From NCBI RefSeq assembly GCF_018474015.1, contig NZ_JAHCSG010000001.1, positions 868,001-932,000 on the forward strand: a stretch of 64,000 nt of DNA, written 5' to 3'. Both the position numbers and the translations under genes were made by a program. Shown piece by piece: positions 3,301-36,201 of this stretch. The DNA is from Williamsia sp. CHRR-6 (GTDB taxonomy: Bacteria > Actinomycetota > Actinomycetes > Mycobacteriales > Mycobacteriaceae). Each line of letters begins with the position of its first letter. The first letter of the stretch is position 1. Below the pieces are notes generated by a model, which worked only from the letters and a program-made list of their open reading frames with translations, had not been told where the DNA came from and ran no database searches.

Positions 3301-3358
3301 CCCTCTCGCCCGTTTTGCCTTTGTTTGCCGGACATTATCCAAATCCGCGTGAACATTA

Positions 3359-3384
3359 TTGGGACACAACACTTTGCGTACACT
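3359..3384 (+). promoter_or_regulatory. Possible promoter of the secreted lipase gene
   Basis: An AT-richer stretch between 3300 and 3487 contains TACACT at 3379-3384, which resembles a -10 element. TTGGGA at 3359-3364 is an imperfect -35 with short (14-base) spacing. The same TACACT hexamer lies in the leader region of the gmd operon. Weak evidence. Confidence 0.22.
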
Positions 3385-3486
3385 GAGTGGCACCATCTGC
3401 CCGGCCAGAGCCACCTGGCCGCCTCGGAAAAGTCGTGGGACGCCGCAGATGGACATCAGTGCCACAGCCAGCATCAGGGGAAAATC

Positions 3487-4674
3487 GTGGTCATCACGAC
3501 GAAATGGCATCGCGGTCTCGTCACCGCCGTATCGATTGCAGTTGCCTGCGTATTCGTGCTCGGGACAGGTTCAGCTTCGGCCGTCTCCGACACGCCGCTG
3601 CCCGCCTCGACGCTGCCCACCCCAGTGGGCACCTCACCGGTGGCGCGTGGCGCCATCATCGGGCCCACCCAGGATCTGACGTGGATCGACAAGACCACTG
3701 TCTCGCTGGCGAAGTTCGCCTCGTACAGTTCGACCGATGCCACCCGCGGTTCCGCGGTGACGGTCACCGGTTCGTTCGTGATCCCGCAGGGCACGCCACC
3801 TCCGGGCGGATGGCCGGTGGTCGTTATCGCTCACCCCACCATCGGGCTGACCAACAATTGCGGCATCCCCAACCTGCCGGTGGCCGCCTACGTGGCCCTG
3901 CCCATCGTGACTCCGTTCACCTCGCTGGGGTACGCCGTGGCGATTCCCGACTATGAAGGACTGGGCCCCAACGGAACCCATCGTTATCTGGACCCACGTG
4001 CCGCGGCGTACAACGTGATCGATGCCGTCCGAGCGTTCGGCAAGCTCTCACCTGCGGTGTCGAAGCGATGGCTGGTCGTCGGAAACTCCCAGGGTGGCCA
4101 TGCGGCCTGGGCCGCAGACGAATACAACTCGCTCTATGGGCAGGGTCTTTCCATGGTCGCAGCGGTGGCGATCAACCCCGTGGCCAATGTAACCGCTTTC
4201 CCCGCACTGGCCGCGGCGGGTCGACTCTCGGCCAATCAACGTGCCCTCGCGACGGCTCTCGCGTATGCGGCAGTCCAGTCGTCGAACGGCACCTTGACTC
4301 TCAAGCAGCTCATTCCTGGCGTCACCCAGGATCAGATCACCTCGTTGATCGGCTGCGGACCTGATCGACCCGCCGTGGCGGCGAGCATCACCGCGGCACA
4401 GGTGACCCCGGCCGACTCCTCCGCGGTCACGTCGTATCAGGCGGCATTGAGTCGGCTGGCGCTGCCCCAGCGCCGTCTGTCCGTCCCGCTGCGGGTCATC
4501 CAGTCCGATCGTGACGACGTGATCCTGCCGTCCTGGAACACTTTTGCGATCCGAGCGGCGCGAGCCGCAGGCGGCTCGGTGTCCCAGCGGGTGCAGGTGG
4601 GCGGCGACCACCAGTACGCCAAGCTCGACGCAACCGACTTCGCCTGGATCGCAGGCGTTTTCGCCCAGCGCTAG
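3487..4674 (+). CDS. Secreted lipase-family alpha/beta hydrolase
   Basis: An exported serine hydrolase of the secretory lipase family (PF03583 type), 395 residues from the chosen start. GTG at 3487 is preferred because AGGGG ends 6 bases upstream and translation from it begins with a clean signal peptide: KWHRG, a hydrophobic core, then cleavage near GSASA|VSD. There is no lipobox Cys, so it is predicted to be released or only loosely attached. The nucleophile is Ser201 in GNSQGG, with candidate Asp343 (SDRDDVILP) and His375 (GGDHQYA). Three paralogues, all lipoproteins, lie at 32352-36188. The stop codon overlaps the convergent DUF4012 gene by 4 bases. Confidence 0.85.
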   Translation: MVITTKWHRGLVTAVSIAVACVFVLGTGSASAVSDTPLPASTLPTPVGTSPVARGAIIGPTQDLTWIDKTTVSLAKFASYSSTDATRGSAVTVTGSFVIPQGTPPPGGWPVVVIAHPTIGLTNNCGIPNLPVAAYVALPIVTPFTSLGYAVAIPDYEGLGPNGTHRYLDPRAAAYNVIDAVRAFGKLSPAVSKRWLVVGNSQGGHAAWAADEYNSLYGQGLSMVAAVAINPVANVTAFPALAAAGRLSANQRALATALAYAAVQSSNGTLTLKQLIPGVTQDQITSLIGCGPDRPAVAASITAAQVTPADSSAVTSYQAALSRLALPQRRLSVPLRVIQSDRDDVILPSWNTFAIRAARAAGGSVSQRVQVGGDHQYAKLDATDFAWIAGVFAQR

Positions 4675-6617
4675 CGGCAAGCAGGAAGGTCAACCTGCAC
4701 TGTCGGCTTGTCGACCAAGGGCTGCACCGGAACCAACGGTGCACCCTTGGCCGAGGTCGGCTCCAGCATCTTGATGACCACGGTGGATGTCTTGCCCGGC
4801 AGCGTGGTCACCTGTGCCGAGGCCCGGCGGTGGCCGCGTTCTTCGCCGACCAGATACAGCACGGGTTGACCGTTGAGGGTCATGTTGGCCACCTCCGACC
4901 CAGCAGTGGCCAGCAGGGTGACCTCGGACAGCATGGTGCCCTTGCGCAGCTTCAGTTGCGGGTTGCCCAAGCCGCCGATCACGTACTCGGGCAACGTCAG
5001 ATCGGTGACGGTGTTCTGCAGTGTCACCGTGATCGTGGTGATGCGGGTGGGGCCGGAGCCACATTCGGGTCCGGTGTAGGTGATGGAACGCCGAAGGTAG
5101 TAGTCGATCTTGTTGCCGGCGAGGTTGCCGATCAACACCTCGGCGTACGGACGGTTCGTCTCGGTCACCTCGTGCGCCAATCCCGCCTGCCGCAACACGT
5201 TCTGTTCGTCGGCACGGGCGCTGTAGACCATCAGTCGCCGTTCGAGCACCGCCCGACCCAGCGCTTCGAGCACCCCGGCGGTGTTGCCGCGCGCCGTCGA
5301 CACCTTGCTGATGGCTTGCGCGGCGATCTCCTGCAGAAAAGCCTTACGCGCCGGGTTGTCCCCACCGAACCGGCGATATGACGACGACAACGTCACCTCC
5401 ACCACGTTGGCCCCGGTGATCTGCTCGCCCGAGGGCAACACGATGGGGCCGGTCGCGGTGAGCAGATAGCTCAGCGCGATCGGGTCGGCGGCCACCGCAC
5501 CGTCGAGCCGCTGCCCGGATTGCTGCTGCCACATCGACATCCAGATCTGCGCCGCATACGGGAAGTTGCCGCTGATGTTGCTGTTGCGCGAATCGGTGTA
5601 GGGCCGGCTGGCCAGGTAGTTGGAGTCGAAATCGGCTCCGAGGTTGATCGGACGCGCCGGAGCCCGCAGCGTCGAGTTGGGTCCCAGCTTGTCGACGGTC
5701 ACCTTGCCGCCGCGGGCGCTGAACACCGCGTACGCCCCCAACAGTCCTCCGGTGCCGCGTGATTCGGCCGGGGTCTGGAACCCGAAGAAGTATCGGCGTG
5801 GCTCCTGCCTGCCCAACATCGGTGGCAGCAGGCGCGCGGCATAGTCGGTGCCGGCGACGAACCGGTTGAGCTTCACCAACTGCGTCACCAGTGCGTCGCG
5901 GGCGTTGGCGACTGTGCCCAACCACGATGGATCGATCCCGGACGCACGGGTCTGCAGACGCGCGGCGCTCGCCGCGATCGGGGCCAGCTCGGGTTGGGCC
6001 GCGGCCAACGCATCGACGTTGATGCCCTTGTCGCCGCTCCGCAACGTCTCGGGATTCAACGTGTCGGCCAACGCCGATGTGGGAGTGAGGACGTCGGTAG
6101 CCACGTCATCGACCACCCCGGCGATGGCACCGGCGGTGGCCAGCGGATCACCGAGGTAGGGCACCGCCGCGGCGGCCCGGAAAACCATGTCACGCGTGCG
6201 GGCGTGGGCTGTCCGCGCCGCCGAGGATGCCTGCGCAGCTTGCGCTTTGGCAACACCCACATCGCCGGCGAGGATGGCCTGGCGGGCTGCGTTGGCGTGG
6301 GTGCGAGCCGACTCGAGGTTCGTCTTCGCCGAATACGTCAGATAGCCCAGGTAGGCCCCGGCGATGAGCAGCAACCCGAGGACCACGGCGACACCGATGA
6401 GGACGGGGCGGCGACGTCGGCGCCGCATCGCGCCAGTCGCCGGCTGCCCGGCACCCACATCAAGGACGCCATCGTCGGATCGGGATCCATCGGAGCTGAG
6501 TTCACCAGGGCTGGCCTCTTCGGGGCTGGGTTCATCAGGGCTGGATTCTTCAGGGCTGGATTCTTCGGGGCTGGGTTCGTCGGGTCGGGATTCATCCGAG
6601 CCGTACTCGTCGGTCAT
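4671..6617 (-). CDS. DUF4012 membrane protein of polysaccharide loci
   Basis: A 648-residue DUF4012 protein. The N-terminus is a strongly acidic cytoplasmic tail made of imperfect five-residue repeats of the S-P-E-E-S/S-P-D-E-P type (about residues 8-40). A polybasic stop (MRRRRRRP) and one transmembrane helix (about residues 70-95) follow, then a long extracytoplasmic region with a helical Ala-rich part and the conserved FGFQTPAESRGTGG motif. DUF4012 proteins often sit in Gram-positive exopolysaccharide clusters; their molecular role is unknown. ATG at 6617 has GGGAG 5 bases upstream and is preferred over GTG at 6623. It follows the NRPS stop by about 27 bases on the same strand, so co-transcription is likely. 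Confidence 0.85.
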   Translation of the reverse strand: MTDEYGSDESRPDEPSPEESSPEESSPDEPSPEEASPGELSSDGSRSDDGVLDVGAGQPATGAMRRRRRRPVLIGVAVVLGLLLIAGAYLGYLTYSAKTNLESARTHANAARQAILAGDVGVAKAQAAQASSAARTAHARTRDMVFRAAAAVPYLGDPLATAGAIAGVVDDVATDVLTPTSALADTLNPETLRSGDKGINVDALAAAQPELAPIAASAARLQTRASGIDPSWLGTVANARDALVTQLVKLNRFVAGTDYAARLLPPMLGRQEPRRYFFGFQTPAESRGTGGLLGAYAVFSARGGKVTVDKLGPNSTLRAPARPINLGADFDSNYLASRPYTDSRNSNISGNFPYAAQIWMSMWQQQSGQRLDGAVAADPIALSYLLTATGPIVLPSGEQITGANVVEVTLSSSYRRFGGDNPARKAFLQEIAAQAISKVSTARGNTAGVLEALGRAVLERRLMVYSARADEQNVLRQAGLAHEVTETNRPYAEVLIGNLAGNKIDYYLRRSITYTGPECGSGPTRITTITVTLQNTVTDLTLPEYVIGGLGNPQLKLRKGTMLSEVTLLATAGSEVANMTLNGQPVLYLVGEERGHRRASAQVTTLPGKTSTVVIKMLEPTSAKGAPLVPVQPLVDKPTVQVDLPACR

Positions 6618-6644
6618 CGCCACTCCCTGTTGTTCGGCCTCATG

Positions 6645-9600
6645 TCACTGTTCAACCCCACCCAGCCCGCCCGGCCCACCTCCGGCCGAGAGATCCAGAG
6701 CGGCAAGCATCTCCCCGATCTTCTTCATCGCTTCCCACTCGCCCATCTCCGCGTGATCCACTCCGGACGACACCGCGATCATCGATCCGCCCACGTGCGC
6801 AGCCCAGCGCTGTGGGTTCGGATTATCCTGCGCCGCAACGTAAACCGTAGAGGTAGGGGTGGCCGACCCGGGGGTGTCCTGCCCGGCGGCCTGGATCAGC
6901 AGGTTGACTCGGCGTAGGTAGTCGGCATAGCGACGCGCGTCGAGCGCCTGCAGCAGGCTGGCCACCTCAGGTTCAATGCGGGCGGCGGTGCGGGTCGCGA
7001 TCTCGTCGGGATGCCGGGCGTCGAGCAGCACCAGCAGTTCCACCCGTTCGGCGAGACGCTGCAGCCGCTGCGCCATCGCGTGGGCGAGCTGTCCACCCAC
7101 CGACCAGCCCAACAGCCGGTACGGACCGTGCGGCTGACGCCGCCGCAGCGTGGCCAGATGCGCCTCGGCCAATGCACCGATGGTGGCGGGCATCGGGAGA
7201 TCGGGATCGACGAGTCCCGGAAGTTGAAGCCCCAGTATCGGTCCGGGCAGCGTCGAGACCAACGGGGCGTAGTTCCAGGCCAATCCGCCGCCAGAGTGCA
7301 CGCACCACAGCGCGCCGGGAGACACCGATTCGTCGACGGGCACCGCGCGGGGACCCGTCTTGGTCAGCTCAACCACCGCAGCCAGAGCGTCGGGGGCCTG
7401 ATCGCCGGCATCGATGGCGGCGGCCAGTGCGGCCGCGGTGGGGTGCACGAACACCGCGGCCACCGCCACGTGCGCCCCCAGGCGCTCCCGCAGCCCCACG
7501 GCCACCCGCGCAAGCTGCAGCGACGTGCCGCCGGCCGCGAAGAAGTCGTCGTGTACTCCGATATTACTGGCGTCCAACACCTCTCGGAACACGTCGAGTA
7601 CCGCGGCTTCGGTGGCCGTGACCGGCTGACCACCAGCCGGGCTCGACCAGTCCACCGCGGGCAATGCGGCCACGTCCAACTTGCCCACCGGGGTGCGCGG
7701 TAGCTGATCGATCTCGATCAGCCGGGCCGGCATCGACGTGGACGGCAGCAGTCGCGCGGCCGCTGAGCGCAGCCGGGCGAGGTCGCGTCCGTCGGTCGGC
7801 GCCACTACGTAGGAGACCAGCACCGCACCCAAGGGGCCGGCGCTCACCACGGTGGCAGCGTCACGAGCCCCCACCCGACGCAGCACGCTGTTCACCTCAC
7901 CGGGTTCCACCCGCACGCCGCGCACCGTGAGCTGTTCGTCCACGCGGCCACAGAACTCCAACCCACCGGTGGTGGTGCGCACCCGATCACCGGTGCGATA
8001 CATGCGACGACCACGTGGTCCGGCGACGAAACGTGTTGCTGTCAGCGCGGAATCACTGTAACCCTGCGCCAACGCCGGACCGTGCAGGTACAACTCGCCC
8101 ACCGTACCGTCGGGCACCGGCCGCAGATGCGTGTCCAGCACGCTCACCCCGACATCGGCGTACGGCGAGCCGATCAACACCGACCGCTCGGCCACCACCG
8201 GCCATCGGGTGGCGAAGATCGTCGCCTCGGTCGGTCCGTAGACGACAAACACCACCCGCCCAGAAGACCAGCGCTCCAACAGATCTCGCGACATCCGTTC
8301 ACCGCCCACCCACACTCGCCGCAGACGCGGCAACTTCGCGGGGTCCAGGCTCGACAGCACCGTGGGGGTGAGGAACATCGCGGTCACACCGAGTCGTGCC
8401 AACTCGGCCGTGCCCACGTCGCCGCCGACCAGGCCCGGTGCGATGACCGACAGCCGGGCTCCGGATCCGGTGGCCAGCAACACATCCAGGATGGCGGCAT
8501 CGAAACTGGTGGCCGACATCATGGCGACCCGGTCCAGCGGGGTGAGCGGGAACTCGTCGGGATCGGTGAACGTCGACAGACCTCGATGCGTCACCCACAC
8601 CGGGTTGGGCACCCCGGTGCTACCGGAGGTGAAGACGAGGTAGGCGGGCGCATCGACCCCGGTGTCCACCGGCGGCTGCGGGGTCACCGCATCCAGTGCA
8701 CCCGGATGCACCGGTATGTCCACGCTCACCCGCCCGGCCGCGAGGTCCCCCAACGGATCTCCGATCACCACCCGGGCGTCCACGGTCTCGAGCATCAGGG
8801 TGATCCGCTCAGGCGGATAGGCGGGATCGATTGGCGCATACACCGCGCCGATCCGCACCACAGCCCACAACGCCACCAGCGAGCGCACCGAGCGCGGCAA
8901 CAGCACCGCCACCGGCTGTCCCGCGCGAACACCGTGCGCACGTAGTTCGTTGGCGATCAGCCAAGACCAACGGTCGAGATCACGGTAGGTCAGGGTGAGG
9001 GTGCCGTCGTCCACGGCCACCGCAAACGGATGCTCGGCCACCGCCGCGGCCAGGATCGATCCGAAGCTGACCGGGGTGCGTTCTGGTTCGGCCAGCAACG
9101 ACAGCGACTGCAGGTCGGCCTCGTCGTCGGTGCGCAGGTCGATCGCGTCCACCGGCGCGGCCAGGCCCCGGTCGGTGATCTGGGTGAGCGCGCGGCGCCA
9201 CCGGTCGGCAAACACGGCCACCGTCGACCGGTCGAACAGCGACTCGGCGTAGCCGAACGCGACGGTCATCCGACCGTTGAGCGGGTCGACGGTCACCGTC
9301 ACCTGCAGGTCGAATTCTGATGCGGGACTGTAGATCTGCGAATCCGAGCTCTCGGCACCGGACTCAGCAGATCCCACGCCACCTGCCAGTTCCACTACCG
9401 ACAGCATCACCTGCACCAACGGATGGCGCCCGGCATCACGGGGAACGCCCAGCGCACCGACGATCTCGTCGAAGCCGATCAGCGCGGCATCGAGTGCGGC
9501 GGCATCGGTTTCACGCACCAGAGCCAGCAGCTCACCCACCCGCAGGCCTGGACGCAGCCGGGTACGCAAGGCGACGGTGGAGACGAACATGCCGACCATG

Positions 9601-10529
9601 TCGCGGGTCTCGGGTTGGCTGCGCATCGACACCGGGGTCCCCACCAGCACATCGTCGGTGCCCGCCCACACGCTCAGCGTCAACGCCAACGCGGCGTGCA
9701 GCACGTGGAAGTCGGTCACCCCCGCCGAGCGGGCGGTGTGGGCGATCATCGCCATGGTCGCCGAGTCCAGGTCGAGGGTCACCAGTGCGGTCTCCAACGA
9801 GCGCTCGGGCAGACGCACCGTGTCGGTGGGCAGCTCCAACACGCCGGGGTGACCCTCGAGAGTTCGCCGCCAGAAGTCGATCTCACGGTCGCGACGAGTC
9901 TGTCCCACTGAGCCCGAATGCTGCGAATCGGCGTCCGCGCCGGGTTCGGCGAGATCCCACTGGGCTGACTCCCACACCGCGAACTGCGGGTAACCCACGG
10001 CCAGGGGCGTCAGCCAGCGCCCGTTCAGCGCGGCGGTCAGGTCTGCGGTCAGCAACGGTACCGACTGGCCGTCCATCGAGATGTGGTGCACCACCACCAC
10101 CAGCACACGGTGCGGATCGGTGCCCACCACCGCGGCCCGAACACCGGGTGTGGTGGTGATGTCAAACGGTTGGCGCACCAACTGACGCACGGCCGCAACG
10201 GGATCCACGTCGGCGGCCACCTCGGTCACCTCCAGTTCCAGCCGACGCAGCACCTGTGCGCGCGGTCCGTCGGGGGTGTCGGGGTAGACGGTGCGCAACG
10301 GCGCGTGGCGATCAGCCACCGCGGCCACGGCCGCGCTGATCGTGGCCGGCGACACCCCGGCGGGTAGCGCCACCGCCACCGGGATCACGGCCGGCGCCAT
10401 CCGGGCGCCACCGACCTGTGCGCGTTCGGCATCGGCAGCGAGTCGGTCGACAAACCACATGCGACGCTGCGCAGACGTGAGCGGTAGCAGGGTGCCCGGC
10501 GGCGGCGCGGCGATGCTGCGCAGACCCAC
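6645..10529 (-). other. NRPS module 6: C-A-T plus thioesterase
   Basis: Residues about 4876-6169. C6 has HHISMDGQS (His5024). A5 has a deviant core 3: FTSGSTGVP is followed by Asn-Pro-Val-Trp where Lys-Gly is usual. The later Lys in PVGKLDVAAL is intact. The pocket reads D-A-L-F-W-G-V-I-F-K, unassigned. T6 carries Ser5878 in AGGTSL. The type I TE has Ser6018 in GWSVGG, LLDARHPDE as the Asp region and GVDHAEMGEW as the His region, so release by hydrolysis or cyclisation is expected. Confidence 0.85.
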
Positions 10530-13500
10530 TTCGGCTGCAGCCGTGGCCACCTCGTGGCGTACCGCACGGGCCAGACTGCGCGGGGTCGGGTGGTCGAACA
10601 CAGCGGACACGCGAATCGTGGTGTCCCAGCGGCGCGAAAGCACCGACACCACCTGCGTCGCCGCCAGCGACGATCCGCCGGCGGCGAAGAAGTCGTCGTC
10701 GGGACCGATCGCAGCGGGGTCCACCCCGAGTACGTCGGCGAACACCGCGGCCACCCCGTCGACCATCGCCGGATCCACACCGTCGGCACGCGCCATCGGG
10801 ATCTCCGAACCACTGATGCTCGCACCGCCCTCTCCGAGGGCATCGGGGTCTACCACCGCCGGGGCCGCCGCGCTGCGATACGGGAACGGCGCGTCGGGGT
10901 TGGTGGCCGCCGCACCCAGCAGAGCCATCAGCTCGTCGATGAAGTCCTCGGCGATGTCGGCCGGCACCGCTCCGGAGTGCACCAGCGTCAACGACAGCGG
11001 TCGACCCGGCATCTGACCGATCACCACTTCGAGATCGAACTTGGCGCCCAGCAACGCTTCTGGACCTATCACCGGCTCCACCGACACCCCGACCACGGTC
11101 GGCGGCATCACGTCTCCGGACAGAGCCGCGACCTCCTGGCGCACCAGCAGCACCGAGATCAGCGGGTCCTGGCGACCGCTGTGAGCGGGTTTCACCGCGC
11201 GGGCCACCACGTCGTAGGGCAGCTCATCGTGTGCCGATGCGGCCAGATCGGTGTCACGGACCCGCTTGACGGCGTCGCGGATCGATTCCCCGGACCGCGA
11301 GATGGTCCGTAGCGCAATGGTGTTGACGAACATGCCCACCACCGGCTCCCAGGCGGGATCGCTTCGACCGAGCACCGGTGCACCGATGACCAGATCGGGT
11401 CGGCCGGTACGGTTGGTCAGCAACCCGGCCAACGCGGCATGGGTCACGTGGAACAGCGACGCCGAGGTGTTGTCGGCCAACGCCTTGAGACCGGCCGCCA
11501 CCGACTCGTCGAGGGTGCGGACTGTGCGGCCACCTGGTCCGATGGCGGTCTGCGCTGGGGCCGTGCCGGGCAGTCGGACCGGGCTGCCCACGCCCGCCAG
11601 GGTGCTGGTCCAGAAGTCCAGGTGCCGTTGGTATTCGGAGAATGCATCCTCGGGGTCGCCGAGGCGCCGCAGTTGCCAGCGGGTGAAGTCGGCGTAGGTG
11701 AGGTCGGTGTCGCGGGGCCGATCGGTACCCCCGTGATAGCCGGCGGCCAGGTCGGCCAACAGCGTCCGCATCGACCAACCGTCCACGGCCACATGGTGGA
11801 TGGCCATCACCAGCACCCAGTGACGATCGGTGTCCCAGACCACGGTGCCCGCACCGGGGGCCTCACTGCCGATGTCCTCGCCACCGGCGTCGGTGCGCTG
11901 GCCACGCTCGGGCACCACCTGTAGCACCACCGCCCGGAATCCCGGCTCGGACACCAGGTCGAAAGGCGCGGTGATGATCTCGGCGACCGCGTTGGGCACC
12001 TCCGATTCGCTGACCGAGCGCACGGGTACCGCAACACGCTGCGCCGGGCGCACCACTTGCCGTGGGCCGTGCGGCGTCTCGGGGAACACGGTGCGCAACG
12101 TCTCGTGACGGACCGGCAGCTGCGCCACTGCACCGGCCAGCGCGGCCGGGTCCACATCACCGGCGACCTTCAACACCAACGGCACCGTGTACGCCGTGGA
12201 CATCGGGTTCATCCGATGCAGGATCCACAGTCTGCGTTGCGGATACGCCAACGGCAGGTCGGCTGGTGTCGGCATGTGGTCGGGCCGCAGGCGGGGCGCA
12301 GTGGCCAGGTCGCCCTGGAGCACCGCGGCCAACGCGCCCACCGTGCGGGCATCGAAGAGGTGGCCGACGGTGACCGCGCGACCGGTGCGATCGCGCAGCC
12401 GGGCGATCACGCGGGTGGCACTCAAGGAGGTACCGCCGAGGGCGAAGAAATCTGAGCCGGTGTCCAGGGTGGACGGCGAGATGCCGATGACCGTGGCGAA
12501 TTCGGCAGCCACCGCCCGTTCGTAGGGGGTGACCGGTGCCGTTCCGGCCGCCGCCCCCAGCCGGGTAGGGGTGGGCAACGCAGCCCGATCCACCTTTCCC
12601 CCGCCGGTGCGCGGCAAGTCGTCGAGCACGCTGAACACCGTCGGCAGCATCCGCCTGGGTAGCAGCGCGCTCAACTGTGCGGTGAGCACCTCGCTGGACA
12701 CCGACCGCGATCGGTGCGGGGTCACCGCCGCACCGGATGTATCAGGATCGGCTGAGACCTCCTCGCCCACAGGTCGATCCGCGTTGCTCGGCACCACCCA
12801 CGCCACCAGCACGTCGTCGCCGCGCGGGGTGGGATGCAGCCCGACTGCGGCGTCGGAGATCTGGGGCAGGGACGTGATGGCGGCCTCGAGTTCGGCCGGC
12901 TCCAACCGCACCCCACGTAGCGTCAGCTGAGAGTCGGTGCGGCCGTGAATCACCAGGTGGCCATCAGAACCTCTGCGGTGCACCACATCTCCGGTGCGAT
13001 ACATACGCTCCCCCGACCCGAAAGGGTCGGCCACGAACCGCGAGGCGGTGCGATCGGACAATCCCAGGTAGCCCCGGGCCACCGCGCGGCCCGCGATGTA
13101 CAACTCGCCCACGGTGTCATCGGCCACCGGACGCAGCCGCTCGTCGAGCACATACACCGACACCCCGTCGAACGCCGTGCCGATGCTCACCGGATGCGCA
13201 CCCACCGCCGTGTCCCCGGTGACCGCGACGGTGGTCTCGGTGGGCCCGTACAGGTTGACCATCCGACGACCTCGAGACCAGTTGCGCGCCAACGTCTCCG
13301 GCAGGGCCTCACCGCCCACCACCAGGCTGGTCACCGACGGCAGCGAACCGGTTTCCATGGTGGTCAGCACCGACGGGCTGGTGAACAGCACCGATACGGT
13401 GGCCCGCTCGATCAGCTCGACCAGTTCCTCGCCGCCGATCACCTCCGGCGGGCACACCACCACCGCAGCGCCGACGTGGAAGGCCGGCAGCAACTCGATG

Positions 13501-16500
13501 AGGTGGGCGTCGAAGGTGGTGGCGTAGTTGTGCAATACCACGCTGTTGGCGGTGATGCCGGTGGCGGCCACCGCAGCATCGATGAGACCAGACAGACCGG
13601 CGTGGGTCACCAGCACCCCCTTGGGTGCCCCGGTGGACCCGGATGTGTATGTGAGATAGGCCAGTTCGTCTTCTCGAGTGGGTGCGCGGGTCACCCCTAC
13701 GTCATCGGAGATGACGTCGGTCTCGATGGGCAGCCACCGACCGGGCAGATCTGCGGGCACCCCGGTCCGGTCGTAGATCCCCAGCACGGGGGCGGCGTCG
13801 GCGATGATCGCCTGTCGACGCGCCAGCGGATCACGCACGTCGAGGTGGACGAACGCGGCGCCTGCGGTGGCCACGGCCCACATGCCCAGGATCGACCACG
13901 GCGACCGCGACCCGTGCACGGCCACCACGTCGCCGCGGCGCACGCCGGCCGCGATCAGGTTGCGCGCCAACTGATGTGCCTGCGCCAACAGGTCCCGGTA
14001 GGTCAGGGTGTACCAGCCCGACACCCCGTCATCGTCAGCGTGGTGTCGACGCGGGGGCACCGCCACGGCCACCCGATCGGGGTGCTCGCGCACCGCGGCC
14101 TCCAACAGTTCACCGAGTCCGACCGGTGCCGGGTGCGCCGCGGCAGGCACCGGACGCGGCGCGGCGAGCAGCACCGCGACCGGCGCCTCGGGTGCGCTGG
14201 TCGCGGCAACAAGCAGCGTGGCCAGCTCGTCGAGCAGGCCTCGAGCGACCTCCGGTGACACCACGCTTCTGCGGTGGACCAGACCGATGGTCAACCCCGC
14301 CTGATCGTCGGATGAGCCGACGAAGAAGTCCAGTCCGAATCGCGCCTGTGGTCCGGGGAGCGCAGCGCGCAGCTCCTCGAGCTCGACACCCCACACGGCA
14401 CTGCCCCCGGGCCGGTGTTCCTGACTCAGGTCAGCCAGGAACACATCCCAGATCGACTGTCCCACTTCGACAGTGGCGGGATCCAGGTACCCGGTGACCG
14501 CACTCGACGACAGCTCGGCGTGGGCGAATGTCTCCAGGTCGTCTGCGGTCACCGCCGCCAGCACGTCGCCGAACCCACGCTCGAGGTCGATGCGGGTGCG
14601 CAGCGGCACCGTGTGGGCGAACATGCCCACCGTGCCCACCAGGGCCTCGTGCACGCGGCCCGAGGTGGCGGTCCCGATGACCAGATCGTCGGTGGCGCCC
14701 CGCCGGGCCAGCAGACTCGCCAGCGCGGCGTGCACGGTCATGAACAACGTCGAGTGGTGGGCGGTTGCGAAGTCGGACAGCTTGGCTCGGGTGTCGGCGG
14801 GCAAGTCGATCGAGACGAACTCGCTGTCGTCGATGTCGGTGCCGATGGTCACCGGCGACCGCCAGGTGACGCCGGGCAGACGCAGGGGCGGCACCGGCGT
14901 GGCGAATCGACCTGACCAGAACTCCCGCAGCTCCTCGGCGCGTACCCGCGTCAGTTCGGCCAGCCACTGTGTGTACGAGCCGAAGTCGAGCGGCGCTGGA
15001 CCCAGGGAGCCGGGGCCGGCGATCTCGGCGGCCAACTCGTGTTCGATGATGGCCAACGACCGACCGTCCACGGCGATGTGGTGCACCACCACACCCAGGA
15101 TCTGCAGATCAAAGCCATCGATGTCGAAAACGCCCATCCGCCAGGGAATCTCGGTGGGCAGGTGGAACGGGCGACCGATCATCGTCAACGCCTGCGCGAC
15201 ATCGGAGGCCTGACGCGGAATGAGGTCGACGGCCACGTCGTCGACCTCCCAGAGCAACTGATACGGCCCGTCGGCATCCTCGGGGTAGCTGGTACGCAAC
15301 GCGTCGTGACGCGCCATCACCGTGCGCACCGCCCGCTCCAACCGTTGGGCCACATCGTGGGTGGCGGGCAGCGGCACCGCCGCAGCCAGGTGATATCCCG
15401 TGTCGGTGGGATCGATGCGCCACAGCAGCCAGAACTCTCCCTGCTGCGGGGTGACCGGCAGCCGGTCTGGACGCGGGCGCGCCTGCAAGACCGGAAGCGC
15501 CTGTGCCGCACCGGGCTGCGCCTGATCGATCAGCCCGGCCAGCATGGCCACGGTGGGGTTGTCGAAGATGTCGCGCACGCTGATCACGGTGGCCCGCACC
15601 GACAGTGTCGAGGCCAACCGCGCCGCCGACAACGAGTTGCCGCCGACATCGAAGAAATTGGAGTCGGCACTCAACGCCGATGACTCCAGCCCCACCACTG
15701 CAGCGAAGGCGGCAGCCACAGTGCGCTCGGCCCCGATCATCGGTGGGCGTCCCCCACCCGATGAGGAGGCCAGCGCCAGCAGCGCATTGCTGTCCAGCTT
15801 GCCCGAGCTGGTCAGCGGCCATGCTCGCACCACGAACACCCCGGCAGGCACCAGATGGGCCGGCAGGGTGGCCGCACACAGCTCCCGCAGCCGACGGCCG
15901 TCCAGCGGTGTCGGAGTGGAATCGGTGGCGATGGACCCGGTGGGACCGGTCACGCTGTGGCCGATGACGAATGCCACCAGCACCTCGTCGCGGGGACGCG
16001 CACCCGGGCGCAACAGCACCCGCACATCGGCCACGCCGGGATCGGCACGCAACGCCGAGGCCACCTCACCCAACTCGATGCGGTAGCCGCGCAACTGGAT
16101 CTGCTGATCCACTCGGCCCAGGTACTGGAACACCTCAGCACTCAGGCGCCGGGCGTGATCGCCGGTGCGATACATCCGCCCGCCCGCCGGACCAAACGGT
16201 GCGGCCACGAACCGTTCCGAGGTCAGCGCGCTGGCGCCCAGGTAGCCATGTGCCACCTGCGGACCAAGCGCATACAGCTCGCCGCGTGCACCGACGGGTA
16301 CCGGGCGTAGCCGACGGTCCAACACCACCAGGCCCACCCCCGGCAGCGGCCGCCCCACGATGCTGCGCCGGTCGGCGGTGTCCACCTCGCCGTGGGTGAG
16401 GTGCACGGTGGTCTCGGTGATGCCGTACATGTTCAGCAGCGTGGCGCCACGCATCCGAACCTGGGCGGCCCGCAACGATTCCGGGGTCACGGCCTCGCCC

Positions 16501-19500
16501 CCGAACACCACTGTGCGCACCGCGGCGTACCGCGCCGGGGGCACCTCCAGGTCGGCCAGGCGGGCGAACGCGGTGGGCGTCTGGCTCAACACACTGACGC
16601 GCTCGCGCTCCAACAGGTCGAGCAACGACTGGGGATCCTGGGCGGCGTCGGAGTCGACGGTGACCACGCGACCACCGGACACCAACGCGCCGAACACCTC
16701 CCACACCGAGAAATCGAACGCCGGTGAGTGAAACCACGACCACACGTCCGAGCGGCCGGGGGAGACGACGGGCAGCGCGGCGTCGAGCATGGCGGTCAGG
16801 TTGCGGCGGCTGACCACCACGCCTTTGGGATCGCCGGTGGAGCCAGAGGTGTAGATGACATACGCCGGGGCACCACCGGCGATGGCACCCATGCGACCGC
16901 GACCCGATCCACGCCGGGCCGCCTGGATCACCAGATGCTCACGGCCACCGGCGATCTCCACGGTGTCCGTCGCGTAATCGGGCCCCTGTGCAGACTCGGT
17001 CTCGGTCTCGGTCTCGGGGTTCGGCGTCGCGGGAACCTGGGCGTCGACGGTGATGGTCACCACCGGGTCGGCGGCCGCCAGCAGGGTGGCCACCCTGTTC
17101 TCGGGGTAGACGACATCGATCGGGACGTACCCGGCACACGCGGTCATCACAGCCAGCAACGCCACCACGGTGCCCGTGGTGCGACCACCGATCACCGCGA
17201 CGAGGTCACCGACGCCCACCCCGTGCGCCTGCAGGCGGTCAGCCACTTCCCGCACCGCGCCCAGCAGTTCGCGGTAGCTCATCGTCGTCGCGCCGTCCAC
17301 CACGGCGATGCTGTGGGGCGCGCTCACCGCGTTCTGGGCGATGGCCGCGATCGGGTCGCCGATGGACGATCGCACACTCAACGCACCCGCAGCGATCGGC
17401 TGCGGATCGACCAGGCCGGGAATCGGTTGGTGCAGCGGCGATCCGGCCATCAAACCGATCGCCTCCACCAGTGCCTGCAGGATGCGTCCGGCCAACGCCA
17501 CATCCACCCGCCAGGTACCCACCACCAGCGTGATCGACAGTGCACCGCCCGACCCGGAGTCGGTCACGCTGAACTCCAGCGGCACCCGAGCGTGCGGAAC
17601 CAGCAGAGGGGTGACCGACCCGTTACGCCCGATCATCGATGCGGCCGCGTCGGTGGGAAATCCGAAGGCCAACAACACGTCCAGGTACGGATCGGTGTCG
17701 CTGGTGCGCGCGGGCGCCAGGGCCTCGACGAGGCCCTCATACGACAGCGTGCTGTGTGCCACCGCTTCGCTCAACGCGGTCACGCTGGCCCGCAAGGTCT
17801 GCGACAAGCTGGCGTTCGCGTCGATCCGGCTGCGCAACAACACAGTCCGGACGTACATGCCTACACCGCCGAGCTCGTCGGCGGTGTCGCGGCCGGCCGT
17901 CGGGGTGCCGATGACGATGTCGTCGCTGCCGGTGAACACGGCCAGCGTGTGCGCCAGCGCCACATGCACCACGTGGAAGACGGTGCTACCGGTTGCCGCA
18001 GCACAGCGGGACACGGCCTCCCGGGTGGCGGGGTCGATGGTGGCCTGCAGGTGATCAGCCGGTTCGGGATCGGAACGATCGGTCGGCGCCCACCCCGGGG
18101 TGGGCAGCGACAGGTGCAGCGGTGCATCGGCGAGAGCCTGTGTCCAGTAGGCGATGTCGTCGGTGTGATCGGCGGCCGCCAGTCGTTGCGCATGCCGGTG
18201 ATAGGGCACTGCTGCGGCCGCCCACCGCGGTGCCAGACCCGCCCGCCTCGCCTGCAGGGCGTGGTGGAAGTCGGCGGCCATCAGGTCCAGCGACCAGCCG
18301 TCGGCCACGATGTGATGGGCCACGAACACCGCGGCCGAGCGCACCCCGGCGGCGCCGTCGACTGTGAACAGCGTTGCCCGCCAACCCAGATCACGCTGCA
18401 GCTGGAACGGGACCACGGCGGCTTGGGCCGCCGCGCGACCCAGGCCCGCCGCACTGACCCGCCGCGGATCGGCGGTGGCGGCGATGATGCGGGTCCGGGC
18501 GTCGTCCACCCGCAGCACTCGTGCGATGGGCGCACCGGCTCGCTCCGAGACCACGGTTCGCAGGATCTCGTGGCGGGCCACCAGATCGCCGAGGGCGGCC
18601 ACCATCACATCGCGGTCCAGTTCCTCGTCCAACTCCACCAGCACAGGTAGGTGGTAGACGGTGGAGCGGGCATCGATGCGGTTGAGGATCCACAGCCCCT
18701 GCTGCTGCGGGCTGGGCACATAGTCCAGTGGCCCGTCGTCGCCGTGACCGGCGGTGTCCTCCCGATGCCCGGGCAGTCGCACCGCGGTCTCGGGCTCCGG
18801 TGTGGATTCACTTGTTTGCGAGGACGCTTCGGCCTCAAGGGCTGCGGCCAACGCGGCCAGCGACGGTGTGCCGACGATGGTGGCCACCTCCACCGGCCGG
18901 CCGGTGGCCTGCCCGATCACCACCGCCAGATGCATGTAGGTCAGCGAATGGGCACCCAGGTCGGCCAACGATCGCTGCGGATCGACCTCGGCCGGGTCGA
19001 TGCCGAGCACCGTGCCCACCGCCGCCAGCACCGCACCGGGCACCGGGGCGGCGGGGTCGAACACCACGGGGCTGGTGTGGGGGGCCGGTAGGGCGGCCAT
19101 GTCCACCTTGCCGCTGGCCGTCAGCGGCCAGGTGTCGACGTCGACGAAATGGGTGGGGATCGCGTAGGCGGGCAACGTCTGTCGCAACGCGGCCCGGGCC
19201 GCGGCAACATCGAAGGTGCCGTGACTGCTGACGTAGGCGACCAGTTCGGCGCCATCGAGGCGCTCGCCGGTGCGGGCGATCACCTGCGCGTCGGTGACCC
19301 GCGGGAGCGCGCGCACCGAAGCGGCCACGTCGCCGAGTTCCACCCGGTGGCCGCGGATCTGCACCTGCGTATCGGTGCGCCCGCCGTACTCGAGGTAGCC
19401 GTCGGCGGTGCGCCGCACCATATCTCCGGTGCGGTAGCGCCGCACACCCTGCGGTCCGGCCACGAAACGTTCGGCGGTCAGGTCGGTGCGGCCGTGATAC

Positions 19501-22500
19501 CCCAGCGCCAGATGCGGTCCGTGCAGGTACAACTCGCCCCAGGTGCCCACCGGGACGCTGCGCAACCGGTCGTCGAGGATCTCGGCCCGCATGCCGTCGA
19601 GCAACACGCCCGCGATCAGCGAACGGGGGTCGGCCGTGTTCACCTCGGCCGCGGTGGCGTGCACGGACACCTCGGTGATGCCGAACATGTTGTGCATCCG
19701 CACATAGGTGCCCAACACCGACGGGACCGCATCGAATCGGGCCGGCGCCAGTGCCTCGCCGCCGAAGACGAGGTGGCGCAACCATAATTGGCCCAGACCC
19801 GGCGTGTCTGCCTGGGCCACCAGCTGCGCGGCCAACGGACCGAACGCAGACGGCGTCTGGCTGAGCACGCTCACCCGGTCGGTGCGCAGCCGGTTGCTCA
19901 GGGCCGCAGGGTCGGTGAGGATCGGGTGCTCGATCAGGGCGACGGTGGCACCCACCCGCCAGGCCCCGAACACCTCGAACACCGCGAAGTCGAAGGCGAG
20001 TGAATGGGTGCAGGAGAAGACGTCGGAGGACTCCGAGCCCAGGTACACCGCGGTGGCGTCGAGCATCGAGACCACGCTGCGATGGCTGACCGCAACACCT
20101 TTGGGTCCTCCGGTGGAGCCGGAGGTGTAGATGACGTAGGCAGGCGCGTCGGCGGGTACCGGCACCGGGGTGAACAGCGGTGCCGACGGATCCAGCGGGG
20201 CGCCGCTGTCGCACATCACCTGCGGGTAGCCCACCGGGATGACCGCCGGTGTCTGCGGCGAGACCAGCACCGCCGACACCGCCGCCTCGGTGAGGACGGT
20301 CCCGATGCGCACCGCAGGCGCGGTCATGTCCACCGGGACGAAGGCCGCCCCAGCCATCAGCACCGCGAGCTGGGCCACCACCGCGTCCACACTGCGTGGA
20401 AGCGCCACGGCGACAGTGCTGTTGGGTTGCACCCCGGCGACCACCAGCCGCCCGGCCACGGTGCGCGCCACGGCGTCGAGTTCGGCATAGGTGTGCCGGC
20501 GGGGGGTGCCGTCGGCGCCCAGCCCGTGCACGGCCACCTGTTCAGGATGCACACCGACGCTGCCGGACACCACGTCGAGCAGGGTGCGCCCCGACCGGCC
20601 CGCCGGGGTGGGTGCAGTGAGCACCCCCACCCCAGCCACCAGCACCTCGACGGTTGCGGAGGTGTCGGCGACGGCCACGGCCAGCGCGTCGAGGTAGGTC
20701 TGTAGCAGCCAGGCCGCGGTGCCCACCGACACCGTCGACACCTGATGGGTGAGCGTGACGGCCAGGCTGTCGCCGGTGCGATCGATGTTCCACTGCAACG
20801 GAACCCGTGGATCGACGGCCGACTCCTCGGTCACCTCGATGGTCAACCCGTCGACGGCGAGCTGCCGGTGATCGGTCTCGCGGAAACTCAACAGCACATC
20901 GGTCAGCGGCGCCTCGTTCAGATCGCGATCCGGTTGCACCGCCCGCACCACCTCGGCGAACGGCAGGTCGCCGTGCAGCTGGGCTTGGCGTGCGGTCTGC
21001 GCGGCCGCGGCGGCGATGTCGGCGATGGTGTCGGTGGGCGCGATCACCGTGCGCAGCACCACCGGGTTGACGTACATGCCCACCGCCGGGCGGGCGTCCA
21101 GGCGGTCGCGGCCGGCGGCGGCAACCGCGATCCACACGTCGTCCACCCCGGTGTGGCGCGCCTCGACCACCGCCAACACCGCGTGCAGCAACCCGAAGGT
21201 GCTCACACCCAATCGTGCTGCGGTGGAATCGATCTGATCGGCCAGCTCCGGCGACAAGAGCGCGGCCTGGGTGCCTGCGGCGGCGGTGGGCACGTCATAC
21301 TCGCGGCGCACATCGGTCGGCCGCCGGGGCCGTGTCGTGCGGCCGGCGAGCTGAGTGCGCCAGTACTCACGCTGGACGCCGGCCTCGCTGTCCCGATCCT
21401 CGACATCACCGAGCCAGGCGGCGGTGACCAGGGTGGCGTCGGCGTACGGCAGCGCCGCCTGCGACCACTGCGGGACGTGGCCGTCGCGACGAGCCGTCCA
21501 CGCGGTGATGGCGTCTGCGGTCAGCACTGCAGCCGAGGCGTCGTCGACGAGGATGTGATGGGCGGCGACCACCACCTCGACCCCGCCGATCGAAGACTCA
21601 GAAGTTCTGTCGCGCAGCATGATGCGCAGTGGGATACCACCCACCGGGTCCACCACCGCAGCGCCGAGATCCGCCCCGGTCAGGTCAGTGTCGGTGACGA
21701 TGATCTGCGCGCACGCGGAGTCGACGTCGATCACGTCCTGCCACAGCTGCCCGGAGGTCTCGTCGATGCGCAGCACGGTCCGCAACACCTCATGGCGCGC
21801 CACCAGATCGGCGATCACCTGTGCCACCACAGCCACCGACAGGCCCACTGCGGTGAGAGAAATGCTGCCGCGCAACACATTCACCTGTGACTGTGGATCC
21901 AGCCGATGCTGAGCCACCAACGCCTGCTGCTGTGCTGAGGCCGGCGGGTGTTCGGGGCGGATCGGGGACAGAGGCGTCATCCCGGCGTGTGCCTGCACCG
22001 TGTCTGCCAGCTCACGCAGGGTGGTGGCGGTCAGCACGTCGCGAACGGAGATGAAAGCCCCTGTGCGCCGGGAGATCTCCGAGGCGATCTGCGCGGCGTT
22101 GAGCGAGCTGGCCCCCAGCTCCACGATGTCGGCGAGCATCGAAGGGCGTCGTACCCCGACCACCGAGGAGACCACGTCGGCGACCACGAGCGCGGCGGTG
22201 CCCGACGGGGCCTGATACGTCACCTGGGATTCGGCAAGCGGCAGCTGCGCCAGGGCGTCACGGTCGATTTTGCCGCTCACCGTCACCGGCATCGACTCGA
22301 TCACCACGATGCGCGCCGGCCACATCGCGGGCGGCAGGTGTTCGGCCAGGTGCCGTCGCACCGACGACCGCAGTGCCACTGCAGCGGTCACCTCAGCCGC
22401 CGCACCGACCGCCCCGCCGATGTCTCCAGCCCCGCCCATCACATCCGACCCGGACCCCACGACGTAGAGGATCAACGCGTCGTCGACCACCACGGCCGCG

Positions 22501-25361: not shown

Positions 25362-26876
25362 TCAGTAGGCGCCGGACCGCACGAAAACCGCCCGCACCGT
25401 GCGCCACAGGATCTGGACGTCGGTCGCGATGGACCAGTTCTCTACGTACCTCAGGTCGAGGCGCACCGATTCCTCCCACGACAGGTCGGACCGACCGGAG
25501 ACCTGCCACAGCCCGGTGATGCCGGGCTTGACCAACATGCGGCGCATCACCGGACCTTCGTAGCGCGCCACCTCGGCGGGCAGGGGCGGGCGGGGCCCCA
25601 CCAGGCTCATCGATCCGCCCAGCACGTTGAACAGCTGCGGTAGTTCGTCCAGGCTGTAACGCCTGATGAACCTGCCGACCCGCGTGACTCGTGGGTCGTC
25701 ACGGATCTTGAACAACAGTCCCGACCCCTCATTCAGCACTGACAGCTCGGCCAATCGGGCGTCGGCATCGACCACCATCGATCGGAACTTCCACATCCGA
25801 AACGGCACGTTGTTGATGCCCATCCGGTCCGCCTTGTAGAAGACCGGACCCTGGGAGTCGAGCTTCACCGCGATGGCACAGGCCAGCAGGACCGGCCACA
25901 TCGCCAGGAGCAGGGCCAGCGCACCCACCCTGTCGACAAGGCTCTTCAGGATGCGATTGGCCCCGCTGTAGGTGGGCTTGTCGATGTGCAGCATCGGTAA
26001 GCCGGCCACCGGTCGCACCAACATCCGCGGACCAGCTACGTCGATGACGCCCGGGTCCACCAGCATGTCCACCCCCAGGCCCTCGAGTTCCCAGGACAGT
26101 TCACGCATCGCTGAGTGGCCCAGGACTTCGGCAGAGGTGACGGCCACGGTCGTGGCACCGACTTGCTGCACGGCGATGGCAGCCGCACTGAAGTCGCCCA
26201 GGATCGGGATGGGCCGCTTCTCGATGGTGATCGACGCGGCGGTGCGGGAGTCGACGGTGGGCAGGCATACGCCCACCACTTCGTAACCCAGTCGCGGGTT
26301 GCGTTCGAGGTGGCTCAGCATCGGTCGCGCCGAGCGCTCGTTGCCGACCACCAGTACGCGACTCATGCAGCGCAGATTCGCCCGTTCACGACGAAGATAA
26401 AGGCGCCACGCAAGGTGTGAGGACATCAAGAGGAGTGTTCCCAGAGGTAGTGCGAGAGCTATGAATCCGCGTGCCACATTCAGTGCGAACAACAGATCGA
26501 TGATGGCCATCAACCCGAAAACCATGAGGCTGGCCGTTGCCACTCGGCTCAGCTCGGCAGTCCCCGATCCGATGATCCGGACATCGCATACGCGCGTCAC
26601 GTGCAAGACCATGATCCACAGGGCGGCCAGCACCGCGGACACCAAGATCGCAGGGGCCTGCACCGAAGCGACCCCTACCTCGAAGTCGAAGCCGAACCGC
26701 GCGAACTCGGCCGCGAGCACCACTGCGATCACGACGATCGCGTCCGACCAGATCAGGCGGCGCCGGTAGCCAATCACCCAGTGCGGCTGTGGCTCTCGCA
26801 TTGGACATGCGGGCCGCGGCAGAGCCGCCGTCCCTGCAGACCTCTCGTTCGGAGACTGCGCAGCAGCCAACGACAT
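25362..26876 (-). CDS. WcaJ-type polyprenyl-phosphate sugar-1-phosphate transferase (paralogue 2)
   Basis: A second initiating transferase, 504 residues from the chosen ATG. ATG at 26876 has a G-run (GGGGGG) 5 bases upstream and is preferred over 26894. It has four or five N-terminal membrane segments, a central region with RVLVVGNERSARP, and the C-terminal sugar transferase domain: KFRSMVVDAD, RRYSLDELPQLFNVLGG, SLVGPRPPLP, KPGITGLWQVSGRSDLSW. The C-terminal halves of this gene and of 1101-2615 are near-identical over long stretches at protein level and visibly similar in DNA, in the same orientation, about 24 kb apart. It lies upstream of the NRPS on the same strand and may share its transcript. 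Confidence 0.9.
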   Translation of the reverse strand: MSLAAAQSPNERSAGTAALPRPACPMREPQPHWVIGYRRRLIWSDAIVVIAVVLAAEFARFGFDFEVGVASVQAPAILVSAVLAALWIMVLHVTRVCDVRIIGSGTAELSRVATASLMVFGLMAIIDLLFALNVARGFIALALPLGTLLLMSSHLAWRLYLRRERANLRCMSRVLVVGNERSARPMLSHLERNPRLGYEVVGVCLPTVDSRTAASITIEKRPIPILGDFSAAAIAVQQVGATTVAVTSAEVLGHSAMRELSWELEGLGVDMLVDPGVIDVAGPRMLVRPVAGLPMLHIDKPTYSGANRILKSLVDRVGALALLLAMWPVLLACAIAVKLDSQGPVFYKADRMGINNVPFRMWKFRSMVVDADARLAELSVLNEGSGLLFKIRDDPRVTRVGRFIRRYSLDELPQLFNVLGGSMSLVGPRPPLPAEVARYEGPVMRRMLVKPGITGLWQVSGRSDLSWEESVRLDLRYVENWSIATDVQILWRTVRAVFVRSGAY

Positions 26877-27205
26877 GTGAACCCCCCAGTTCAATGATCA
26901 CTACCCGGTCGACCGCGATCGACGCGCGGCGTGCCGCGCCTCAGCCACACTGACTCTCGCGGGAAAACCCGAGCTGTGCCGCCCCGTACGAGCAGAGTCC
27001 AGCGTGCCGAAGCCGCTTTCGCATGTTCGCCTACCTAAACGTATGGCTGTGGTTGTCGAACTGCAACTCATGAGAATTCGACCACATTGCGTAGTGGACG
27101 AGAGCGCGCAGTCCGCAGAAAGGTCTCTCGAGGATCAGGAATCTGACGAGGGGCACTTTTCTGAGCAGATCACGGGCCCTACGCCCGGGTGACGTCCGAG
27201 GTCGC
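26877..27205. other. Intergenic region, nothing recognised
   Basis: A 329-base region upstream of sugar transferase paralogue 2 and downstream of the thioesterase. It presumably contains the transferase promoter. A 62-codon frame at 27004-27192 has no recognisable features, and I do not call it a gene. I found no convincing hairpin, repeat or RNA. Confidence 0.5.
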
Positions 27206-31791: not shown

Positions 31792-32367
31792 GTGACTCCA
31801 TCCCAGCCTCCGCCGCCTCCGCCGACCCGTGTTCCGGAAACCAGCACGGTCTCGCCCACCTCAGCCAAGGAGCAACTGGTGGAACGGCTGTACAACATTG
31901 TCGGCCGGCGACTGCCCTCCCATCGGATACGAGCAACATGGTTGCGATTCGCGGGCGCGGCAATCGGAGATGGAACCGTCATCGGCCTCGGAACCCGAGT
32001 TCATGGCCCATCGCACCTGTCGATCGGGCCACACTGCAGCATCGGAGATCACTGCCTGCTCGATGCTCGTGGGGGAATCACCATCGAGCACGACACCGTC
32101 TTCGATCACGACGTGCAGTTGATCGCCGGTCACCACGACGTGCACTCGTCCGACTTCGGAAACGTGTTCATGTCGATCGAGATCGGGCATCACGCGTGGG
32201 TGGCGTGTCGCGTGCTGGTCACTGGCGGCGTACGCATAGGTGATGGCGCGGTTGTCGAGCCGTGCTCGATGGTGCGCTCAGATATCGCCGCCATGGCCAT
32301 CGCGTCTGGCATTCCCGCCACCGCCACGGCTACGCGCACATCCCCGCTGTCCTACCGTCCGGTCTGA
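31792..32367 (+). CDS. Left-handed beta-helix O-acyltransferase (WcaF/NodL-like), copy 1
   Basis: A 191-residue hexapeptide-repeat transferase. After a Pro-rich start (PPPPPPTR) comes a helical segment (ERLYNIVGRRLPSHRI), then repeats such as IGDGTVIGLGTRV, LSIGPHCSIGDHCLL and VRIGDGAVVEPCSMV. The active-site region is HHDVHSSDF with the later HHAWVA. Such enzymes use acetyl- or acyl-CoA to acylate a sugar hydroxyl. It is a paralogue of 39936-40520, which has the same domain order. Its last 16 bases overlap the convergent lipase gene. Confidence 0.85.
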   Translation: MTPSQPPPPPPTRVPETSTVSPTSAKEQLVERLYNIVGRRLPSHRIRATWLRFAGAAIGDGTVIGLGTRVHGPSHLSIGPHCSIGDHCLLDARGGITIEHDTVFDHDVQLIAGHHDVHSSDFGNVFMSIEIGHHAWVACRVLVTGGVRIGDGAVVEPCSMVRSDIAAMAIASGIPATATATRTSPLSYRPV

Positions 32368-33587: not shown

Positions 33588-33591
33588 GTGA

Positions 33592-36188: not shown

Positions 36189-36201
36189 AGCTGCAGTCCG
36201 G

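Follow-up and report, generated by a model that had tools for sequence, protein, structure and literature searches.

A penultimate condensation-carrier module without an adenylation domain in a Williamsia peptide synthetase, probably loaded from within the same polypeptide

Introduction

Modules that consist of a condensation (C) and a carrier (T) domain without an adenylation (A) domain have been described in several non-ribosomal peptide synthetases (NRPSs), and the descriptions differ in where the loader of the carrier is found. In the mannopeptimycin synthetase, C-A-T-E-C-A-T-C-T-E, the second A domain is said, in the part of PMC8949500 that deals with it, to serve both T domains that follow. 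For capreomycin, the corresponding passages of PMC12400406 report by mass spectrometry that CmnA-A1 loads CmnI; CmnI, like its viomycin counterpart VioI, is an A-less module whose amino acid is supplied by the A domain of a different module, and it is described there as a separate protein that is loaded in trans. A different solution is found in the last module of syringomycin SyrE (as outlined in PMC8949500) and in the third module of himastatin HmtL and the first of WS9326A WS19 (as outlined in PMC9943842), which are A-less and are said to be served by a stand-alone A-T protein of the cluster together with a shuttle or type II thioesterase. Modules without A in the fungal siderophore synthetases SidC, SidD and Nps6 are listed in PMC12400406 as relying on upstream A domains.

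Here, we have analysed a stretch of 64,000 nucleotides (the window) from Williamsia sp. CHRR-6 (RefSeq assembly GCF_018474015.1, contig NZ_JAHCSG010000001.1, positions 868,001 to 932,000; contig 1 in a genome of 4.0 Mb), which encodes an NRPS whose fifth module is of this A-less kind. Like the mannopeptimycin synthetase as it is described, this NRPS has a complete C-A-T module followed directly, on one polypeptide, by a C-T module without A. Unlike it, the window NRPS yielded no E domain in our search, continues after the A-less module with C-A-T and a thioesterase (TE) and lies among polysaccharide genes. As far as the published descriptions go, module 5 shares with SyrE, HmtL and WS19 its place inside a large NRPS and differs from them in that no A-T gene was found nearby; it shares with CmnI and VioI the missing A domain and differs in being no separate protein. 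The siderophore synthetases, which are fungal, resemble what we propose here in that upstream A domains serve their A-less modules.

Results

Module 5 consists of a C and a T domain

A single frame stays open over the whole gene of 6169 codons (Table 1). Domains are numbered below by module, so that the last A domain is A6, and core motifs of A domains are called motif A3, motif A5 and so on. In residues 1-4285, Pfam finds C, A and T domains four times each; residues 4286-4875 (module 5, window positions 10530-12299) have only C and T, and C-A-T-TE follows; the totals for the whole NRPS are 4+1 AMP-binding, 4+2 Condensation (C5 being matched in two stretches), 4+2 PP-binding and one Thioesterase match. 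The NCBIfam A-domain model TIGR01733 recognizes five A domains in the gene and none at 876990-880843 of contig 1, the stretch of module 5. With profiles built from the NRPS's own domains, C5 ends at residue 4758 and T5 starts at residue 4797, which leaves a linker of 38 residues, as against 509-560 residues in the five C-to-T regions of this NRPS that bear an A domain. An earlier sequence-only reading had described module 5 as a C and a carrier domain separated by fewer than 60 residues without an A core motif, with Ser4829 as the intact carrier serine, and our results agree on each of these points. The intact HHVAVDG motif that it reported is present as well, with the correction that the motif starts at residue 4453 and His4454 is its second histidine. 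A hidden A domain, which would have overturned that reading, was found neither by profile search in module 5 nor as a motif in its linker, and a decayed one is rejected too, A motifs being absent from 21/21 linkers of the synthetases described below.

Table 1. Features of the synthetase, its neighbours and two proteins with A and T domains encoded elsewhere in the genome (window positions unless another contig is named).
Feature	Position	Strand	Basis
DUF4012 protein, directly downstream of NRPS, 21-base gap	4671..6623	-	
NRPS gene, 6169 aa, C-A-T x4, C-T, C-A-T-TE	6645..25154	-	ORF, Pfam, own-domain profiles
Thioesterase domain (Pfam-matched part)	6960..7310	-	Pfam
T6	7392..7613	-	own-domain profile
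A6, last A domain	7620..9062	-	own-domain profile
C6	9141..10490	-	own-domain profile
T5, carrier domain, residues 4797-4871	10542..10766	-	Pfam, own-domain profile
Phosphopantetheine serine Ser4829 of T5	10668..10670	-	motif read-out
38-residue linker at the place of the missing A domain, no A core motif	10767..10880	-	profile boundaries
C5, condensation domain of A-less module, residues 4299-4758	10881..12260	-	Pfam, own-domain profile
HHVAVDG active-site motif of C5, residues 4453-4459	11778..11798	-	motif read-out
T4, residues 4211-4285	12300..12524	-	own-domain profile
A4, residues 3677-4208, proposed loader of T4 and T5	12531..14126	-	own-domain profile, motif read-out
C4	14172..15464	-	own-domain profile
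T3	15510..15731	-	own-domain profile
A3	15735..17354	-	own-domain profile, motif read-out
C3	17412..18713	-	own-domain profile
T2	18819..19034	-	own-domain profile
A2	19038..20582	-	own-domain profile
C2, HHILVDD instead of HHxxxDG	20643..21953	-	own-domain profile
T1	21978..22187	-	own-domain profile
A1	22188..23774	-	own-domain profile
C1, N-terminal condensation domain	23847..25151	-	own-domain profile
Polyprenyl sugar-phosphate transferase (Bac_transf), directly upstream of NRPS	25362..26894	-	
L101, A-T protein with hexapeptide-repeat-like tail	own genome, contig 3:259717-262548		domain reading
L103, single-module A-T-TE protein, 921-aa frame, weaker A match	own genome, contig 5:15717-18479		

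The second C domain of many relatives carries HHxxxDD, HHxxxDE or HHxxxDA. To read the A-domain codes, we placed the columns by the motifs of the NRPS's own domains, and the code of A3 is one which we take to be threonine-like. This is the one substrate that we suggest from the codes, and the code columns of dead A domains carry no meaning.

The same junction in relatives

A search of named genomes found relatives of the NRPS in Williamsia and Gordonia. Six of the best seven read C-A-T, C-T, C-A-T, the seventh, on a short contig, reads A-T-C-T-C-A, and the seven aligned C-T proteins, at 39-55% identity to the window's, are all without an A domain. When the C-T region was used as query against 401 genomes of the bacterial family, 71 had a match at E 1e-60, many of them through C domains of other NRPSs. 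All of the best 30 family loci (window included, the other 29 lying outside its genome) have T directly after C, with gaps of 20-105 residues; the sole match among these best 30 made by C alone, in G281 (L145), is also A-less. We then have 21 synthetases read whole, the window's and 20 from 18 genomes, which belong to three genera (four of genus g1 with the window, four of g11 and 13 of g9, Gordonia). In 21/21 the A-less module is the penultimate one, and its C-to-T junction has 20-58 residues and no A core motif. As the 20 were picked among matches of the C-T query, this count is biased toward lines without A, a bias that the 30/30 locus count lessens and does not abolish; domain calls in the relatives come from profiles of the window's own domains, which were checked with Pfam on the window.

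The A-less junction is no assembly error. A misassembly, which the earlier reading had named as what would refute it, or a loss of about 1.5 kb that this strain suffered recently has a negligible probability, the same junction being present in 29 family loci beyond the window's genome and in the named Williamsia and Gordonia contigs.

In two genomes, a pair of related A-less synthetases is separated by about 32 kb (G343 contig 47, L173 and L174; G329 contig 1, L175 and L176), and the A-domain codes of these paired synthetases differ. Repeated C-T units without A domains (C-T-C-T-C-A) are seen on a Streptantibioticus silvisoli contig (L010).

Conservation and origin of module 5

C5 has an intact HHxxxDG and T5 an intact GG[TS]SL with the carrier serine in 21/21 lines, and the inactive C or T domain that would be expected of a skipped module is absent from module 5. 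C5 is the most conserved C domain of the NRPS line: its mean ortholog identity is 0.496, vs 0.424 for the last C (one misassigned G395 row included) and 0.445, 0.423 and 0.450 at three further C places; the value of 0.315 at the remaining C place comes from a mixture of non-orthologous domains, since lines of different length contribute either their first or their second C there. For T5 the mean is 0.511, with 0.392-0.544 at the other T places (the mixed place gives the lowest value; the calculation excludes three T rows in which the motif finder failed and the first G395 frame). In five pairs, dN/dS is 0.14-0.30 for C5, like its neighbours, and 0.14-0.28 for T5. These ratios and identities indicate that module 5 is under purifying selection, and it is best explained as a functional elongation module that lacks its own loader.

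In the C-domain trees, C5 of all lines forms one clade (12/12 rows, support 100), and it therefore predates the divergence of the three genera. A recent duplication of a neighbouring module is rejected as its source, the C5 clade being separate with that support. A grouping of C5 with C3 is rejected; those with C4 (AU p 0.375) and with C6 (AU p 0.346) are neither supported nor rejected. Against 28 C domains of other NRPSs, C2 to C6 group together (support 90), and the eight of these 28 that come from C-T modules of other loci do not group with C5, so we discarded them as sister A-less modules in other bacteria. When C domains of the DUF4012-adjoining NRPSs of other genera (see below) were added, C6 joined theirs (support 98) and C5 joined none.

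Gene neighbourhood

The NRPS gene lies between a DUF4012 gene and a sugar-phosphate transferase gene (Table 1), and genes for Wzz, a GDP-mannose dehydratase-like protein, a glycosyltransferase, Wzy and an acyltransferase lie within 22 kb. Four ORFs around the polysaccharide genes have LIP-type secretory lipase domains (3325-4674, 32352-33740, 33592-34968 and 34905-36329). DUF4012 adjoins the NRPS in 15/21 lines, and for the other six (G359, G395, G343b, G329a, G391 and G219) one flank or both lay outside the sequence retrieved. DUF4012 itself is found in 85/201 genomes of the bacterial family (E 1e-60), and it has been noted in an exopolysaccharide (EPS) locus of Bifidobacterium longum, according to the portions of PMC5412050 and PMC6744442 that mention it.

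In other genera, about 20 kb 5' of DUF4012 were read in 18 genomes. A multi-module NRPS begins right beside DUF4012, with opposite transcription, in nine of them; in one more, G026, NRPS domains share the strand of DUF4012, and the remaining eight have no C domain in these 20 kb, G001 showing an A-like match only. The first C domain of the nine NRPSs groups with the window's C1 (support 100), so they and the window's look like one family. In all 43 modules seen in these nine, from five other genera, the A region has 459-624 residues; here the presence of A is judged by the length of the region, one synthetase runs off its stretch and a few modules are without a recognized motif. Comparison with orthologous NRPSs, a check that the earlier reading had proposed, thus finds the Gordonia-Williamsia lines A-less and nine relatives from other genera with an A region throughout, and for this reason the A-less module is so far a feature of the Gordonia-Williamsia branch. 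Three genomes of the window's genus without such an NRPS by the C-T query (G018, G062 and G107) have a DUF4012 that is more divergent, at 34-36% identity, and the 20 kb read around it show no NRPS domain.

Across the window (4671-46791) and loci L163-L202 and L242-L259, at least eight genus codes (g1, g6, g9, g10, g11, g23, g27 and g28) have an NRPS of this family adjoining DUF4012, and other surface-polysaccharide genes are near the pair in g1, g9 and g11. Such a setting suggests that the peptide is linked to surface polysaccharide. Our searches of a single literature collection brought up no account of this NRPS family, nor of any NRPS adjoining DUF4012.

A domains that have died in relatives

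The A domain of the first module is dead or mostly deleted in 7/13 Gordonia lines, in which the C and T motifs are retained (loci L166, L167, L168, L169, L170, L171 and L182). In five of these (G309, G363, G359, G395 and G117) it is near full length, the A10 lysine is replaced by Asn, and no motif A3 or A5 was found in it; in G304 and G219 the distance from C to T is down to 186 and 178 residues, and the lysine is replaced by Val or Gln. The last A domain is dead in 1/21 lines: in G387 (L172) it is a remnant of 256 residues from C to T that has YRTGG, Thr for the lysine, and neither the A7 Asp nor the A10 Lys, while its C and T motifs are retained and C5-T5 is intact. Motifs A3, A5 and A7 and the A10 lysine are present in every line only at the places of the A3 and A4 domains, which for A4 means 21/21 (the A8 motif pattern was excluded, having missed many intact domains). 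In G395 (L170), the synthetase is split by a frame break, real or a sequencing error, that falls within its A domain at the place of A3. As they are dead in some relatives whose C5 and T5 are intact, the first and the last A domain are not the general loader of T5, and reuse of the last A domain, which the earlier reading had offered under the name A5, likewise cannot be general.

Likeness between T5 and the other carriers

T5 and T4 have the highest mean identity of the 15 within-line T pairs (0.452). Four residues after the serine there is Thr in 19/21 T5 and 15/21 T4 and Ala in 19/20 T3, and six residues after it Val in 21/21 T5 and 18/21 T4 and Leu in 18/20 T3; at the T1 place, 6/13 carriers likewise have Thr at +4, a point against the A4 reading, and +6 is mostly Ile. 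T4 is the closest T to T5 in 15/21 lines (one of them a tie), namely in 13/13 Gordonia, 2/4 g11 and 0/4 g1 lines. Taken alone, the window counts against A4, as T4 (0.41) is slightly less similar to its T5 than T6 (0.45) and T3 (0.43) are. The likeness of T5 and T4 may reflect descent or contacts with C domains rather than a shared loader.

A domains elsewhere in the genome

The genome has 20 A domains above the TIGR01733 cut-off, 19 of them in four C-bearing NRPS genes (9, 4, 1 and 5; the nine belong to the large NRPS at contig 1:669724-702063 and the five to the NRPS studied here). The 20th, at contig 3:259903, lies in a 1312-aa frame in which no C domain was found and is that of L101. In the window no A domain was found outside the NRPS except a MenE-type ligase (52276-53478), rejected as a loader of T5 on its NCBIfam name, o-succinylbenzoate--CoA ligase; nor did the 20 stretches that flank the gene in 11 relatives yield any, and in the window and these 20 flanks no stand-alone A or A-T gene of the kind that serves trans-loaded clusters was found. 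These searches speak against a trans-acting A domain encoded in the cluster. The earlier reading had also suggested looking through the genome for a stand-alone A domain with an orphan MbtH; two proteins with A and T domains, L101 and L103, exist, and both MbtH genes of the genome adjoin other NRPS genes.

Discussion

Our results point to module 5 being loaded within the same polypeptide, most likely by A4, in a line that would make a hexapeptide with five A domains; we consider this reading probable, though well short of certain. A4 is the chain neighbour of T5. It would load T4 and T5, immediately downstream, with the same amino acid, C5 would link the aminoacyl group of T5 to the tetrapeptide carried by T4, C6 would pass the pentapeptide to T6, and the TE would release a hexapeptide with identical residues 4 and 5. 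From the comparisons above we infer that loading is in cis, that A4 rather than A3 is the loader and what the product is, and a hexapeptide follows if the reuse of A4 is right. The sequence-only reading had listed trans-loading, double use of an A domain and module skipping; the list was sound, and it can now be narrowed, with skipping unlikely, reuse of the last A domain not general and reuse of A4 best supported.

Charging of T5 in trans, with the A domain supplied by a separate gene as it is for syringomycin, himastatin or WS9326A, is unlikely but deserves attention, as it has precedents (in the parts of PMC8949500 and PMC9943842 that treat them) and as the genome holds L101 and L103 outside the big NRPSs. 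L101-like proteins occur in the window's genome and in 15/15 searched relatives that carry the NRPS; however, they are equally conserved in the three genomes of the same genus that have no such NRPS by the C-T query (19/19 genomes searched, with 72-81% identity in all 18 relatives) and are therefore not tied to the NRPS. L103-like proteins are patchy among relatives and missing at E 1e-60 from 5 of 16 NRPS-carrying genomes, window included in the 16, namely 4/4 g11 genomes and G387, all with the A-less NRPS, and we reject L103 as a general loader of T5. Nor was a loader gene found near the NRPS. If the loader is instead sought within the polypeptide, the place of A3, with its threonine-like code, is the only other one at which the motifs are intact in every line (the G395 gene being split across it). 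We give A3 little chance of charging T5, as it sits one module further from T5 than A4 does, T3 is unlike T5 at the helix-II positions +4 and +6, and the code at the A3 place is altered in the G329 and G343 lines.

Module skipping is known in other assembly lines, and the missing A domain would also fit a module 5 that is skipped, or that merely relays the chain, in a line making a pentapeptide. We hold this to be very improbable, since the catalytic residues of C5 and T5 are retained in 21/21 lines and since C5, the most strongly conserved of the C domains, and its carrier appear to be under purifying selection. Loading by A4 is the reading that we retain, and module 5 is likely a further example of the known principle of a shared loader, by analogy most like that of mannopeptimycin.

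The fixed loss in module 5, the repeated death of the first A domain in Gordonia and the death of the last one in G387 lead us to a wider and tentative suggestion, doubtful as it is at present: in this family, spread over several genera, one or two central A domains might charge several carriers, the others being dispensable, and the products might be acylated peptides with repeated residues that are built into surface polysaccharide.

In conclusion, predicting the length of the peptide from the number of A domains would be off by one residue here and by two in some Gordonia relatives. The relatives represent natural knock-outs, in which different A domains are dead and the C and T domains survive, and they make the sharing of A domains among the carriers of one protein directly testable. 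Finally, the recurrent setting beside DUF4012 and polysaccharide genes suggests that the product of this family may have a role at the cell surface, rather than being a diffusible antibiotic or siderophore.
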